From Denitratisoma sp. DHT3 (GTDB taxonomy: Bacteria; Pseudomonadota; Gammaproteobacteria; Burkholderiales; Rhodocyclaceae), in the NCBI RefSeq assembly GCF_007833355.1, contig NZ_CP020914.1, forward strand, positions 854,047-918,046: a DNA stretch of 64,000 bases. Direction: 5' to 3'. Positions 12,288-23,379 of the stretch are shown piece after piece (within the stretch, counting starts at the first letter, position 1; each line of letters starts with the position of its first letter). Position numbers and translations under genes: made by a program. The notes beneath the pieces were generated by a model, which was not told the DNA's origin, did no database searches, and saw nothing but the letters and a program-made list of their open reading frames with translations.

Positions 12288-12304
12288 CCAGGACAGGCCG
12301 GTAC

Positions 12305-13078
12305 ATGCAGGTGCATGCAACGTTCCCGAACTCCATGACCCATCCCCGCGACTTTCCCGCCTTCTCCCTGTTGCAGTTCTATGCAACGGCCCCCTACGGC
12401 TGCTCCTATCTGCCGGGCCGGGTCGCGCGCTCCCAGGTCGCCACGCCGGCCCATCTGATCGACAGCGAGCTGTTCGGCCAACTGCTGCGCGCCGGCTTCC
12501 GGCGCAGCGGCGCCTTCACCTACCGGCCTCATTGCGACGGCTGCCAGGAATGCCATCCGGTGCGGATTCCAGTAGCGGCGTTCCATCCCGACCGCAGCCA
12601 GCGCCGGGCTCGGCAACAGCATCAGAACCTCGTCGCCATCGAGCGGCCGCTGGTTTTCCGCGAAGAGCATTACCAGCTCTACCAGCGCTACCAGGTCGCG
12701 CGGCATCAGGGCGGCGGCATGGACCAGGACAGCCGCGACCAGTACTCCCACTTTCTGCTCCAGAGTCACGTGGATAGCCATCTGGTGGAATTCCGCGAGC
12801 GGGAAGAGCTGCGCATGGTCAGCATCATCGACGTGATCAGCGACGGCCTGTCCTCGGTATATACCTTCTACGATCCGGACATTGCGCCCAGCAGCTTCGG
12901 CACCTATGCCGTCCTTTGGCAAATCGCCCAGTGCCGGCGCCTGGGGCTGCCCCACGTCTATCTCGGCTACTGGATCCGCGACAGCCGGAAAATGGCCTAC
13001 AAGGCCAGATACCATCCGCTGGAAATCCTGCACAAGGGCCAGTGGCAACCGCTTGAAAACCTTCTGAATCCTGTTTGA
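12305..13078 (+). CDS. bpt: Aspartate/glutamate leucyltransferase
   Basis: Bpt transfers Leu to N-terminal Asp or Glu, the second bacterial N-end rule ligase, structurally related to eukaryotic ATE1. Motifs are [15 protein letters not shown] with the Cys region near the N terminus, [24 protein letters not shown] and [18 protein letters not shown]. The start at 12305 (257 residues) has an upstream AGGACAGG; the in-frame ATG at 12335 (247 residues, MTHPRDF) fits family length better but has no ribosome binding site. It lies directly downstream of aat. Confidence 0.92.
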
Positions 13079-19844: not shown

Positions 19845-20603
19845 ATGAGCAGCATAAGCGGCATCGGCAGCAGTGGTTCGATGATGATGCAGGGGATGGG
19901 CGGCATGCAGGGAATGCGTGGCATGAAACGCCCCGATCCAACGGAGATGGCGAATGACCTGTTTTCCAAATTGGATACTTCGGGACAGGGGTACATCGAG
20001 AAGGCCGACCTGCAAAGCGCCTTCGACCAGGCGGCATCGAAGACCAACGCCTCGGATACCTCGACCAACGTCGATGATCTCTTTTCGAAACTCGACGCAG
20101 ACAGCGATGGCAAGGTCACCAAGCAGGAATTCTCGGACTCGCTACAGAAACTTGCCGATCAACTGGACCAGCAGTTTCAGAGCGGCCGCATGCAGGATGC
20201 GATGCCTTCGATGGGTGGGATGCCGCCCGGGCCGCCTCCTGGCGCTGGAGAGGATGCGGGCAAGACCAAGGAAGAACTCACCAGCGCAGCCACAGAGGTC
20301 AGCGGTAGTGACAGCGGTCTCTCCAGCATGCTGACGAATATCGTTCAGAACTTCGACGCCGCCGACACCAACCAGGACGGCAAGGTGACCATGCAGGAAA
20401 TCATCGCCTATCAGCAGTCGCAAAGCACGGCAGAATCTGGCACCTCAACGGCCGCTGCTTCCGGCAGTGCAGGAAAGGCAGCCTCCAGCAGCAATGACTT
20501 CGAAGCCAAGTTGATGATGCAAATCATGAAGCTGGCCGATGCCTACGGCCTCGGGCATGAGAACACCCATGCTTCTACGTCTTCCCTGACAGTCACTGCC
20601 TGA
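19845..20603 (+). CDS. EF-hand calcium-binding protein
   Basis: 252 residues with a good ribosome binding site (GAAAGGAG). Three EF-hand loops are visible: residues 44-55 (DTSGQGYIEKAD, degenerate), 84-95 (DADSDGKVTKQE) and 174-185 (DTNQDGKVTMQE), the latter two with canonical Asp/Glu ligands. The N terminus is Ser/Gly/Met-rich (MMMQGMGGMQGMRGM), the segment between hands two and three is Pro/Gly-rich, and the C terminus is Ser/Ala/Thr-rich. There is no cleavable signal peptide. Calcium binding is likely; cellular role unknown. Confidence 0.85.
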   Translation: MSSISGIGSSGSMMMQGMGGMQGMRGMKRPDPTEMANDLFSKLDTSGQGYIEKADLQSAFDQAASKTNASDTSTNVDDLFSKLDADSDGKVTKQEFSDSLQKLADQLDQQFQSGRMQDAMPSMGGMPPGPPPGAGEDAGKTKEELTSAATEVSGSDSGLSSMLTNIVQNFDAADTNQDGKVTMQEIIAYQQSQSTAESGTSTAAASGSAGKAASSSNDFEAKLMMQIMKLADAYGLGHENTHASTSSLTVTA

Positions 20604-20643
20604 CGCCTTGGCTGCTGGCAGGGCGCTCTGCGCTCTGCCGGCT

Positions 20644-21111
20644 TCATGAAGCCAGCGATACGAAATTCTCAACAATCGAGGGATCGATGTTTTCAACATC
20701 ATTAGTGCATTCATACAGCAGAGCCAAAAGATAACCACGCTTTTCAGCTGAGATCCCGATTGATCGTTCCATACAGATTTCGTCAATCAAACGGCACAAA
20801 TACCCGAGCCGTTTCGGATCAATTTTGCCCTCAAAAGAATTTTTCTCTGGATCAGGTTCCCGCTGCGGCCCTTCCTCCCCCAGCAACATCGCACCCCGTC
20901 CAGTAAGCAACCAGTTCCCATTAATACCTGAAGCAACAAGTAGCCCCAGCGCCTCCCCGCCAGGCATGCGATTGCCAACTTCGTAATCCTTGTAAGAAGG
21001 GAGCGGAATTTGGCTTCTTTCGGCGATTTCTCTCTGTGTCAATCCGAGTCTCTCGCGAACAGCACGCAAACGAGACGCCACCACTTCCTTTTTATTCAAT
21101 GTGTTGGCCAT
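20644..21111 (-). CDS. XRE-family helix-turn-helix transcriptional regulator
   Basis: 155 residues. Residues ~12-65 form a Cro/CI-type HTH (RLRAVRERLGLTQREIAERS, then PSYKDYEVGNRMPG), as in phage and island repressors. The C-terminal half (residues ~85-155) is acidic and helical with no recognised domain. It is divergent from small genes on the other strand and probably controls them through the palindromes at 21135-21164 and 21216-21231. Its first 60 codons lie within a perfect 427-bp tandem duplication. Codon use and GC are lower than in the core genes. Confidence 0.85.
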   Translation of the reverse strand: MANTLNKKEVVASRLRAVRERLGLTQREIAERSQIPLPSYKDYEVGNRMPGGEALGLLVASGINGNWLLTGRGAMLLGEEGPQREPDPEKNSFEGKIDPKRLGYLCRLIDEICMERSIGISAEKRGYLLALLYECTNDVENIDPSIVENFVSLAS

Positions 21112-21134
21112 AAAAGCACCCCCACAGAGGAAAG

Positions 21135-21164
21135 CCCAATAACGGACTGCCAGTCGTTATTGGG
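21135..21164. promoter_or_regulatory. Long palindrome (candidate operator), copy 1
   Basis: CCCAATAACG (21135-21144) and CGTTATTGGG (21155-21164) are perfect 10-bp arms; the 10-bp centre contains ACTG-C-CAGT, itself a perfect palindrome slightly off-centre. It begins 24 bp upstream of the regulator start codon, a natural autoregulation site, and could also form an RNA hairpin in the leader. Confidence 0.6.
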
Positions 21165-21208
21165 GCTCCGTAACCGATGTGTGATTACAGAGTTTTCAGG
21201 GAGCCATG

Positions 21209-21237
21209 TTGACAAGCATGCAAATGCATGCGATATT
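21209..21237 (+). promoter_or_regulatory. Rightward promoter with operator-like palindrome in the spacer, copy 1
   Basis: TTGACA (21209-21214) is followed by exactly 17 bp and GATATT (21232-21237, four of six matches to the -10 consensus). The spacer is almost entirely the 16-bp perfect palindrome GCATGCAAATGCATGC (7-2-7, 21216-21231), so a repressor bound there would exclude RNA polymerase. Confidence 0.6.
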
Positions 21238-21241
21238 GCAT

Positions 21242-21538
21242 TCAACTGCATCTCCCATGATATTTTCCAGCATGCCAAAAAATAAAACTCGTACGAAGGC
21301 CCAATTGCAAAACCCTTATGAAAAACAGCTTTGGCAGAAGGCGAGGCGCAGTCTTCCTTGCAACAAGTAGCCCCAGCGCCTCCCCGCCAGGCATGCGATT
21401 GCCAACTTCGTAATCCTTGTAAGAAGGGAGCGGAATTTGGCTTCTTTCGGCGATTTCTCTCTGTGTCAATCCGAGTCTCTCGCGAACAGCACGCAAACGA
21501 GACGCCACCACTTCCTTTTTATTCAATGTGTTGGCCAT
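21242..21538 (-). pseudogene. Duplicated 5' fragment of the XRE regulator gene (HTH domain with a new tail)
   Basis: 98 codons. Residues 1-60 are identical to those of the intact regulator at 20644-21111, including the whole HTH. From residue 61 the frame continues into inverted small-ORF DNA (ARKTAPRLLPKLFFIRVLQL) and stops. It arose from the 427-bp tandem duplication. It keeps its own copy of the upstream control region, so it may still be expressed as a truncated DNA-binding protein. Confidence 0.85.
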
Positions 21539-21561
21539 AAAAGCACCCCCACAGAGGAAAG

Positions 21562-21591
21562 CCCAATAACGGACTGCCAGTCGTTATTGGG
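21562..21591. promoter_or_regulatory. Long palindrome (candidate operator), copy 2
   Basis: Exact duplicate of the 30-bp palindrome at 21135-21164, now upstream of the truncated regulator fragment. Confidence 0.55.
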
Positions 21592-21635
21592 GCTCCGTAA
21601 CCGATGTGTGATTACAGAGTTTTCAGGGAGCCATG

Positions 21636-21664
21636 TTGACAAGCATGCAAATGCATGCGATATT
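21636..21664 (+). promoter_or_regulatory. Rightward promoter with palindromic spacer, copy 2
   Basis: Duplicate of the promoter at 21209-21237 (TTGACA, 17-bp palindromic spacer, GATATT). This copy directly precedes the small ORF at 21699 and the two genes after it, so it is the likely functional promoter of that operon. Confidence 0.6.
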
Positions 21665-21698
21665 GCATTCAACTGCATCTCCCATGATATTTTCCAGC

Positions 21699-21797
21699 AT
21701 GCCAAAAAATAAAACTCGTACGAAGGCCCAATTGCAAAACCCTTATGAAAAACAGCTTTGGCAGAAGGCGAGGCGCAGTCTTCCTTTAAGGAATTAA
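21699..21797 (+). CDS. Small basic protein, 32 residues (hypothetical)
   Basis: A short frame starting MPKNKTRTKAQLQNPYEKQL and ending in RRSLPLRN, rich in Lys, Arg and Gln. It sits 34 bp downstream of a promoter-like sequence and 13 bp upstream of the next gene, with no strong ribosome binding site. A truncated copy fused to four other residues exists at 21272 in repeat copy 1. I do not recognise it; it could be a leader peptide or an N-terminal remnant. Confidence 0.4.
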   Translation: MPKNKTRTKAQLQNPYEKQLWQKARRSLPLRN

Positions 21798-21810
21798 AGG
21801 AAAGCGGAGT

Positions 21811-22125
21811 ATGTGCAAAAAAGGGAACAACAATGATCTTGGTAGAGCGCGCGCTTCAAAAACGATGAAAACACAGCTCAACAAACTTTCTTGCCACCAC
21901 CACCTGGCACTTAAAAGCAAAAGCAGAATTTTGGAGATTGTTGGGTTAAAAAAATCGATCCTTTCTCTAGAAATGGAAATAAGGCGAATCCAGGATGAAT
22001 CCAATTACTTAAGAAGCCTCCTCGCAAGGCTCTATGCCTGCCTGCCCGAGGGCTCACTGTTGCCGACTCCTCTCTTAGAAGAAATTGGCGATGTGGTTGG
22101 TTATTCCAAATCACTGTTCAAGTAA
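21811..22125 (+). CDS. Small coiled-coil protein (hypothetical)
   Basis: 104 residues from ATG 21811, preceded by AAAGGA and CGGAG; ATG at 21865 (residue 19) is an alternative. The N terminus is basic with a CHHH cluster (residues ~28-31). Residues ~43-78 form a probable amphipathic helix (ILSLEMEIRRIQDESNYLRS). No known domain recognised. It lies between the small ORF and the PAS gene in a lower-GC island, possibly one operon under the XRE regulator. Confidence 0.6.
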   Translation: MCKKGNNNDLGRARASKTMKTQLNKLSCHHHLALKSKSRILEIVGLKKSILSLEMEIRRIQDESNYLRSLLARLYACLPEGSLLPTPLLEEIGDVVGYSKSLFK

Positions 22126-22242
22126 TGTCTTTCTACCAAGGGTATTACAGCCCCACGCCCTGGGCACTGCCTACAGCATTTGGCATCTCATATTCATTTG
22201 TTCTTTTCATTGGCTTGCTTGAAGAAAAATAATAGGGCGCGA

Positions 22243-22779
22243 ATGGAACTTAAAAAGCAACTACTACGCCACGATGAAGCAGCACGGGCTTGGAGTCAGC
22301 TTTTAATGACACCCAAGAGAGCCGTTGTCGTTATCGACGGCTCTGGCATGGTCAAGCGAATCAATCTGGGTGTCACGCTCATCCTTGGCTATGCAATGTC
22401 CGACTTGCACAACCGGCATGCAACATCAATTTTTAAGAACATACCCGACATCCAACACATCAAGACCGCAACGGACCCGCTTTGGGAGGGTGAGGTATCC
22501 GGCCTTACAAAGGAAAAAGATTGCATCGAATTTTGGGGAACAATCGTCCAGGTTTCATCACGAATGAATTTCCCCGATACCAGAATAGGAATTTTCTCGC
22601 CGCTCATTCTGCCACTGCCGCATAGGATACCTACAGAACAGGCATCGATGCATCTCAAATGCAAAAACTTGGGCTTACCCGCCTCCGCCTGTCACAAACA
22701 GTACGAAAGCATATCGTCCCTTTTCGAAGCCAAAGCCAACGCTGTCGTTCTTGGTCACACCATCGACTCAACAGCCTAG
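22243..22779 (+). CDS. Single PAS domain protein
   Basis: 178 residues from ATG 22243; the frame is open further upstream to a TTG at 22180, but that extension looks non-coding. Residues ~20-120 follow the PAS pattern (RAVVVIDGSGMVKRINLGVT, LGYAMSDLHNRHATSIF, then EFWGTIVQVSS). No kinase, GGDEF or HTH output domain is attached. The C-terminal 50 residues are not recognised. It may be a stand-alone sensor or a remnant of a larger signalling protein. GC content is lower than in flanking core genes. Confidence 0.65.
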   Translation: MELKKQLLRHDEAARAWSQLLMTPKRAVVVIDGSGMVKRINLGVTLILGYAMSDLHNRHATSIFKNIPDIQHIKTATDPLWEGEVSGLTKEKDCIEFWGTIVQVSSRMNFPDTRIGIFSPLILPLPHRIPTEQASMHLKCKNLGLPASACHKQYESISSLFEAKANAVVLGHTIDSTA

Positions 22780-22989
22780 CCGGCAGGTTTCACGCTCACC
22801 ACCTTTTACAACTGGGGACGTATCACCCAGAACGTCGACAACCGCATGCCGGCAGCCGCCACATCCTCAAAGTGAAAGCCACCTGGGTATGACACGATGG
22901 CGACGACCAGGATGGTTTGCTGGACAAGAACCGCAGGAGGCTGATCGCCAGCCTGCCGTTTTGAGTTTTGACCTATTTAAAGTGCCTCC
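22780..22989 (+). other. Intergenic region with possible gene remnants
   Basis: No intact gene. Short protein-like stretches occur in more than one frame, for example TFYNWGRITQNVDNRM near 22800 and HDGDDQDGLLDKNRRRLIAS ending in a stop near 22965, separated by stop codons. They may be decayed coding sequence, but I cannot assign a family. Confidence 0.3.
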
Positions 22990-23379
22990 ATGTTTTTTCG
23001 ACAACTGACCCAGCGGAAACGCGTTGTCTCGCTGATCGGTGCGGGAACCCGAATCATCGGTACTGTGAAGTTTCACGATGACCTGCGCATCGATGGCGAA
23101 ATTCGTGGCGACGTGTGCAGCGACAACGAATCCAGCACGCTGGTCGTCAGCGAACATGGCCTGATCGACGGCAGCGCACGCGCATCGCATCTGATTGTGA
23201 GCGGTACGATCCTCGGCACGGCGGTGGCCGACAACCTGGAACTGCGACCCACCTCCCGAATAACGGGAGACGTGGCGTACGGCGTTATCGAAGTTCCGCC
23301 TGGTGTCGTCATCCAGGGGCGATTGACCTGCCACCGCGGCGAGCCGACTCCATTCACCGAGTCGACCAACATGATTTGA
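22990..23379 (+). CDS. Bactofilin (polymer-forming cytoskeletal protein)
   Basis: 129 residues. The central DUF583 beta-helix repeats are visible (SLIGAGTRIIGTVKFHDDLR, IDGEIRGDV, LVVSEHGLIDGSARASHLIV, SGTILGTAVADNLEL, SRITGDV), flanked by short polar ends. Bactofilins polymerise without nucleotide and scaffold local wall synthesis, stalks or motility. It stands alone here, at the right edge of the low-GC patch. No M23 peptidase partner is adjacent. Confidence 0.88.
   Translation: MFFRQLTQRKRVVSLIGAGTRIIGTVKFHDDLRIDGEIRGDVCSDNESSTLVVSEHGLIDGSARASHLIVSGTILGTAVADNLELRPTSRITGDVAYGVIEVPPGVVIQGRLTCHRGEPTPFTESTNMI

Follow-up and report, generated by a model that had tools for sequence, protein, structure and literature searches.

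The window analysed here, a 64,000-nt stretch of DNA at positions 854047–918046 of the one-contig, 3,655,561-bp genome of Denitratisoma sp. DHT3, carries a perfect 427-bp tandem duplication in the divergent control region of a gene for an XRE-family regulator. The two copies, at window positions 20933–21359 (copy 1) and 21360–21786 (copy 2), are adjacent, lie in the same orientation and are identical at 427/427 bases. It is likely that they arose through a recent, homology-independent duplication within a probably acquired gene islet, with largely neutral consequences. The event was probably real and ordinary in kind, and the locus as it stands represents an ordinary, probably young duplication. 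What the analysis newly contributes is the prediction of an operator, which the event would have doubled, together with the indication that the extra reading frame left behind is unlikely to work.

A search of the genome with the 427-bp unit (E ≤ 0.001) returned two places only, both at this locus, and the pair is the sole exact direct repeat of at least 30 bases inside the window. The perfect tandem duplication described in an earlier note on this DNA is thus borne out, and a chance origin of the identity is out of the question. The 0/427 differences between the copies correspond to a 95% upper bound of 0.7% on their divergence, in support of the very recent event that the note had proposed. 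Its other suggestion, a selected amplification, found no evidence of either selection or amplification. An old duplication held identical by conversion is neither supported nor contradicted by the data, since the locus was not encountered at the corresponding position in any relative.

The left flank reads CCTGAA/GCAACAAG, the junction between the copies (21359/21360) reads CTTCCTT/GCAACAAG and the right flank reads CTTCCTT/TAAGGAA, with the slash marking the breakpoint. The letters of flank and junction share no base, so the microhomology of this novel junction is zero, which implies either a homology-independent event or a faulty assembly. The locus resembles the short-junction (illegitimate) tandem duplications of bacteria in its direct, adjacent and identical copies, in the absence of the stretch elsewhere in the genome and in the intact genes on either side. 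It differs from them in the small unit and in the lack of junction homology (0 bp), a feature that is usual in this class, though not obligatory. Tandem duplications needing no homology have been described in E. coli, according to an excerpt of PMC11111574. A palindrome (TTCCTT-T-AAGGAA, 21781–21793) spans the right breakpoint, after position 21786, and was considered as the cause; however, there is none at the left breakpoint, and equally good palindromes (arms of at least 6) occur at 1.0% of the positions in 20604–22990, making it suggestive only. An origin through a mobile element or a prophage is likewise unsupported: the unit is found only here, four neighbouring open reading frames (ORFs) have no PHROG match at E 0.1, and a comparison of the islet DNA with the plasmid collection gave no match.

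The alternative of a faulty assembly or library holds that the strain carries a single copy and that the second one stems from a chimeric read or from an error of long-read assembly or polishing. This is unlikely but carries appreciable weight, since zero microhomology is often shown by random chimeras. Moreover, in a protein collection the truncated regulator product of 98 residues is listed from 1 contig, compared with 14 for a 104-residue protein encoded outside the repeat, and the duplicated form is unseen in other assemblies. However, identical counts could result if short-read contigs were interrupted at the repeat, and because the full-length repressor is not listed at all the comparison is hard to read and nothing firm was drawn from it. 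On the other side, the genome consists of one contig, and the nanopore long reads with which DHT3 was sequenced and assembled, as stated in an excerpt of PMC7448270, would easily span 854 bp. Two features of the protein collection stand by themselves: the 155-residue repressor is absent from the listing although the 98-residue frame is present, and the longest contig measures 3,655,661 bp, 100 bp more than the 3,655,561 bp of the genome.

The assembly is also not littered with such structures. A survey of exact tandem duplications (unit of at least 100 bp, within 20-kb stretches) covered 60 stretches of the same genome outside the window, 1.2 Mb in total, and found one other perfect case. This second duplication (L054:16754-18337; G000:C1:1496754-1498337) is like the first in its exact copies and in the pairing of an intact with a truncated gene, here for a pterin-binding enzyme. 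It differs in its 789-bp unit, in a 6-bp junction homology, in affecting a metabolic gene and in lying near a Y2-type transposase gene. At one per 1.2 Mb, or approximately three per genome, the 427-bp event is therefore not unusual for this genome. No case was found in 0.4 Mb of the same-genus genome G001 or in four other one-contig genomes (0.4 Mb in total), and the difference between the genome and these controls is too small to mean anything. For the same reason, an excess of perfect duplications as a sign of bad assembly (1 in 1.2 Mb against 0 in the controls) was discarded. The survey also encountered imperfect or partial repeats at spacings of 147–999 bp in the same genome (L046, L050, L081, L090, L117, L121 and L127), which were not counted. 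Among them, L117:4636-5607 (G000:C1:1164636-1165607) holds an unexplained near-identical direct repeat with a spacing of 667–668 bp, whose first exact pieces of 65, 67 and 68 bases are separated by single mismatches.

The arrangement of genes around the duplication agrees with the one claimed earlier: the intact regulator gene (20644–21111, minus strand) is attached to copy 1, the intact rightward genes are attached to copy 2, and operators and promoter-like sites occur twice. The unit was said to contain the first 60 codons of the regulator; it holds 59 full codons and two bases of the next, and the first 60 residues do agree between the two frames because codon 60 encodes alanine in both. 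Only the start of a divergent small gene had been placed in the unit, which actually contains 29 of its 32 codons (51 of 54 if an ATG at 21206 is the start). The small ORF attached to copy 1 (21272–21370, plus strand) has its last three codons changed by the junction and ends in RRSLPCNK, with the stop codon 9–11 bases past the junction. The one attached to copy 2 (21699–21797, plus strand), presumably the original form, ends in RRSLPLRN. On the left, copy 2 opens the truncated frame of 98 codons (21242–21538, minus strand) announced in the note, which is real as an open frame and encodes 60 residues of the regulator followed by 38 residues from the antisense reading of copy 1.

The full-length regulator (155 residues) is probably a repressor. 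It matches Pfam HTH_3 (helix-turn-helix, HTH) with 32.7 bits, above the curated cut-off of 23, as well as phage-regulator PHROGs. Its structural model has a mean predicted local distance difference test (pLDDT) value of 81 and a predicted template modelling (pTM) score of 0.49, with block pLDDT values of 90–95 over residues 11–70. The HTH domain comprises helices at 7–22, 26–33, 37–45, 52–60 and 65–70, followed by a low-confidence linker and by the C-terminal helices 99–116, 122–136 and 144–154 (residues 99–154). A fold search with this model gave no match at E ≤ 0.001, the top rows being mostly HTH regulators; solved HTH folds among them include the 434 repressor, P22 C2 and DdrO, and DdrO and ClgR were also retrieved by sequence profile. 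The system resembles phage-type XRE/CI repressors in its N-terminal HTH, C-terminal helical domain, divergent small ORF and dyad in the promoter spacer. Unlike these, it has no adjoining phage genes, its downstream genes are orphans and its control region is present twice.

The unit breaks off at residue 60, where helix 4 ends. The truncated product consequently lacks helix 5, the conserved stretch 62–75 (ten invariant positions in a five-row alignment) and the C-terminal domain. It has been proposed that such an HTH-only protein could compete with the full repressor in a dominant-negative manner, which would be compatible with a real duplication. The frame does keep the start codon, the upstream region and helices 1–4, including the putative recognition helix, and it still scores 34.5 bits with HTH_3, as expected since the sequence is the same as in the full-length protein. 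However, its model is poor throughout (mean pLDDT 55, pTM 0.23, no residue at 90 or above), in contrast to block means of 90–95 for residues 11–60 in the context of the full protein; helices 2–4 are shortened (26–32, 41–44 and 54–59) and helix 1 is longer (2–21). The modelling thus suggests that the truncated frame would probably not fold, and the extra piece of repressor probably does nothing. The alignments behind the full-length and truncated models are shallow (7 and 10 rows, respectively), which tempers the argument against the competitor idea; it is regarded as very improbable. More generally, truncated HTH frames should not automatically be taken for competitor repressors.

The predicted operator is a GCATGC-N4-GCATGC dyad (GCATGCAAATGCATGC; 21216–21231 in copy 1, 21643–21658 in copy 2). 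It is located between the −35 and −10 elements of a divergent rightward promoter-like site (TTGACA-17-GATATT, with TG before the second hexamer), which was recognized by its match to the consensus at 21209–21237 and 21636–21664 (plus strand). The 3.66-Mb genome contains the dyad precisely twice, once in each copy, and a reversed control pattern not at all. In another genome, G204, it is found once, immediately upstream of a relative of the XRE gene (TTGACTG-GCATGCAATCGCATGC-TAATCT), and the arrangement TTGAC-N2-GCATGC-N4-GCATGC is common to both loci.

The G204 relative is identical to the window protein at 57/139 residues overall, at 44/65 over residues 11–75 and at 9/10 over the recognition helix (36–45). 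A relative in genome G022 shares 53/139 residues overall and 5/10 over residues 36–45, a paralogue in the DHT3 genome shares 3/10 over the same residues, and neither is accompanied by the dyad. In the three cases compared, the dyad therefore tracks the recognition helix. Furthermore, a leftward promoter seen by eye (TCAACA-17-TGTAAT; minus strand, plus-strand coordinates 21212 down to 21184) borders directly on the dyad. If bound at this position, the repressor would be expected to block the rightward promoter and to adjoin the −35 element of its own. A second dyad with a presumed role, CCCAATAACG-N10-CGTTATTGGG, lies between the XRE start and the promoter (21135–21164 and 21562–21591). Each copy thus carries the operator dyad, the second dyad, the rightward promoter-like site and, by eye, the leftward promoter, and the duplication is predicted from the sequence to double the operator sites that face a single full-length repressor gene.

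Several findings weigh against this interpretation. The dyad is missing, within approximately 3 kb, at 13 of the 14 loci of XRE relatives examined (12 others and the paralogue in the same genome), and 5 of 11 searched genomes carry it elsewhere. In four of these (G020, G124, G189 and G227) it lies on other contigs than the XRE matches or far from them, and G001 has one dyad and no XRE match. The genome of G204 is only 59% complete, and the top profile score of its relative is partly owed, as judged by eye, to a near-identical row of the profile (P0005). The number of promoter-like sites can be explained by chance, with 3 found in 2.4 kb against 2.1 expected. As for the duplication itself, a junction without any homology is somewhat more in keeping with a random chimera than with a typical duplication. 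Two observations can be added on the dyad and its counterpart. A scan allowing two mismatches found a further dyad-like place in the window at 12303–12318. The G204 relative (L159, G204:C227) lies between genes that by eye look HD-GYP-type and diverges from other ORFs, perhaps representing this repressor/operator module with different cargo.

A recent, largely neutral duplication of the control region would have proceeded as follows. Before the event, one XRE repressor gene and a divergent operon, composed of the 32-codon ORF, the gene for the 104-residue protein and perhaps that for a PAS-like protein, would have shared a single GCATGC-N4-GCATGC operator. With the operator in the spacer of the rightward promoter, the bound repressor would block transcription to the right, as phage immunity repressors do. 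A short-junction, homology-independent duplication of 427 bp within this region would then have placed a single working repressor gene opposite two operators, with two promoters running each way. From the copy-2 leftward promoter, transcription would yield the truncated, probably unfolded product, and the transcript could continue antisense to the copy-1 small ORF, towards the intact repressor gene. We infer that the expected effect would be small shifts in repressor dosage and some operator titration, largely neutral, and that the copies would be open to loss through recombination between them. The locus could serve as a natural test of operator titration, the predicted operator being doubled and otherwise absent from the genome in exact form, with the repressor gene still single.

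The probabilities attached to the alternatives overlap with that of a recent, neutral duplication and do not add up to one. This applies, as regards the event itself, to the idea that the duplication has been kept by selection, with the second set of operator and promoters altering expression of the islet through promoter capture or operator titration, which seems unlikely. It has been reported that tandem duplications can activate horizontally acquired genes (in an excerpt of PMC11111574), the islet has the look of acquired DNA, and the dyad that was doubled has no exact copies elsewhere in the genome. However, the junction places no new promoter before any intact gene except the repressor, and according to the sequence the original rightward promoter is already supplied by copy 2 alone. 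A further proposal is that the locus switches reversibly between one and two operator–promoter sets through recombination of the 427-bp copies, against a constant single repressor gene, giving rise to subpopulations that differ in the expression of the orphan genes; this is a highly speculative scenario, to which very little credence is given.

The islet that harbours the duplication was delimited by the analyst at the neighbouring genes (20604–22990). Its GC content is 49%, compared with 64% for the window, and its genes encode the 155-residue XRE regulator, the divergent 32-codon ORF, the 104-residue protein (21811–22125, plus strand, 3′ of copy 2) and a stand-alone, weakly PAS-like protein of 178 residues (22243–22779, plus strand). 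The small ORF, searched in frame, has no Pfam match in either copy, and the copy-1 form has no PHROG match. The 104-residue protein has no match at E 0.001 in the 248 other genomes of the family, and only itself in a large protein collection. In 99 fetched loci, taken from outside the studied locus and the sample of its own genome, the small ORF has 0 matches and the 104-residue protein has one, at chance level (E 0.45). PAS_9 scores below threshold for a longer frame (22180–22779), and the 178-residue frame itself has no Pfam match at 0.01; distant matches of the PAS-like protein (21–42% identity) are present in 14 of the 248 other family genomes.

The regulator is more widespread. Relatives are found in 13 of 41 genomes by sequence and in 85 of 249 by profile, with the own genome included in both counts, and many of the matches listed cover the HTH part only. 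In phage records, searched with the protein only, it has a match in 1 of 50,697 (36% identity), and in plasmid records in 7 of 72,556, all below 60% identity; among viral contigs, no relative was confirmed in 23 pattern matches. Neither of the other two genomes of the genus (G001 and G002) gave a match to it, and there the islet genes also lack a tblastn match around nfeD and mfd. The low GC content, the absence of matches at nfeD and mfd within the genus and the orphan genes together indicate that the islet looks lineage-specific and was probably acquired. The gene adjoining its left edge, for an EF-hand protein (19845–20603), likewise went unmatched in the nfeD and mfd surroundings of both genomes. 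The nfeD and mfd genes are separated by approximately 2.4 kb in G002, where a different gene occupies the interval, and they do not adjoin each other in G001.
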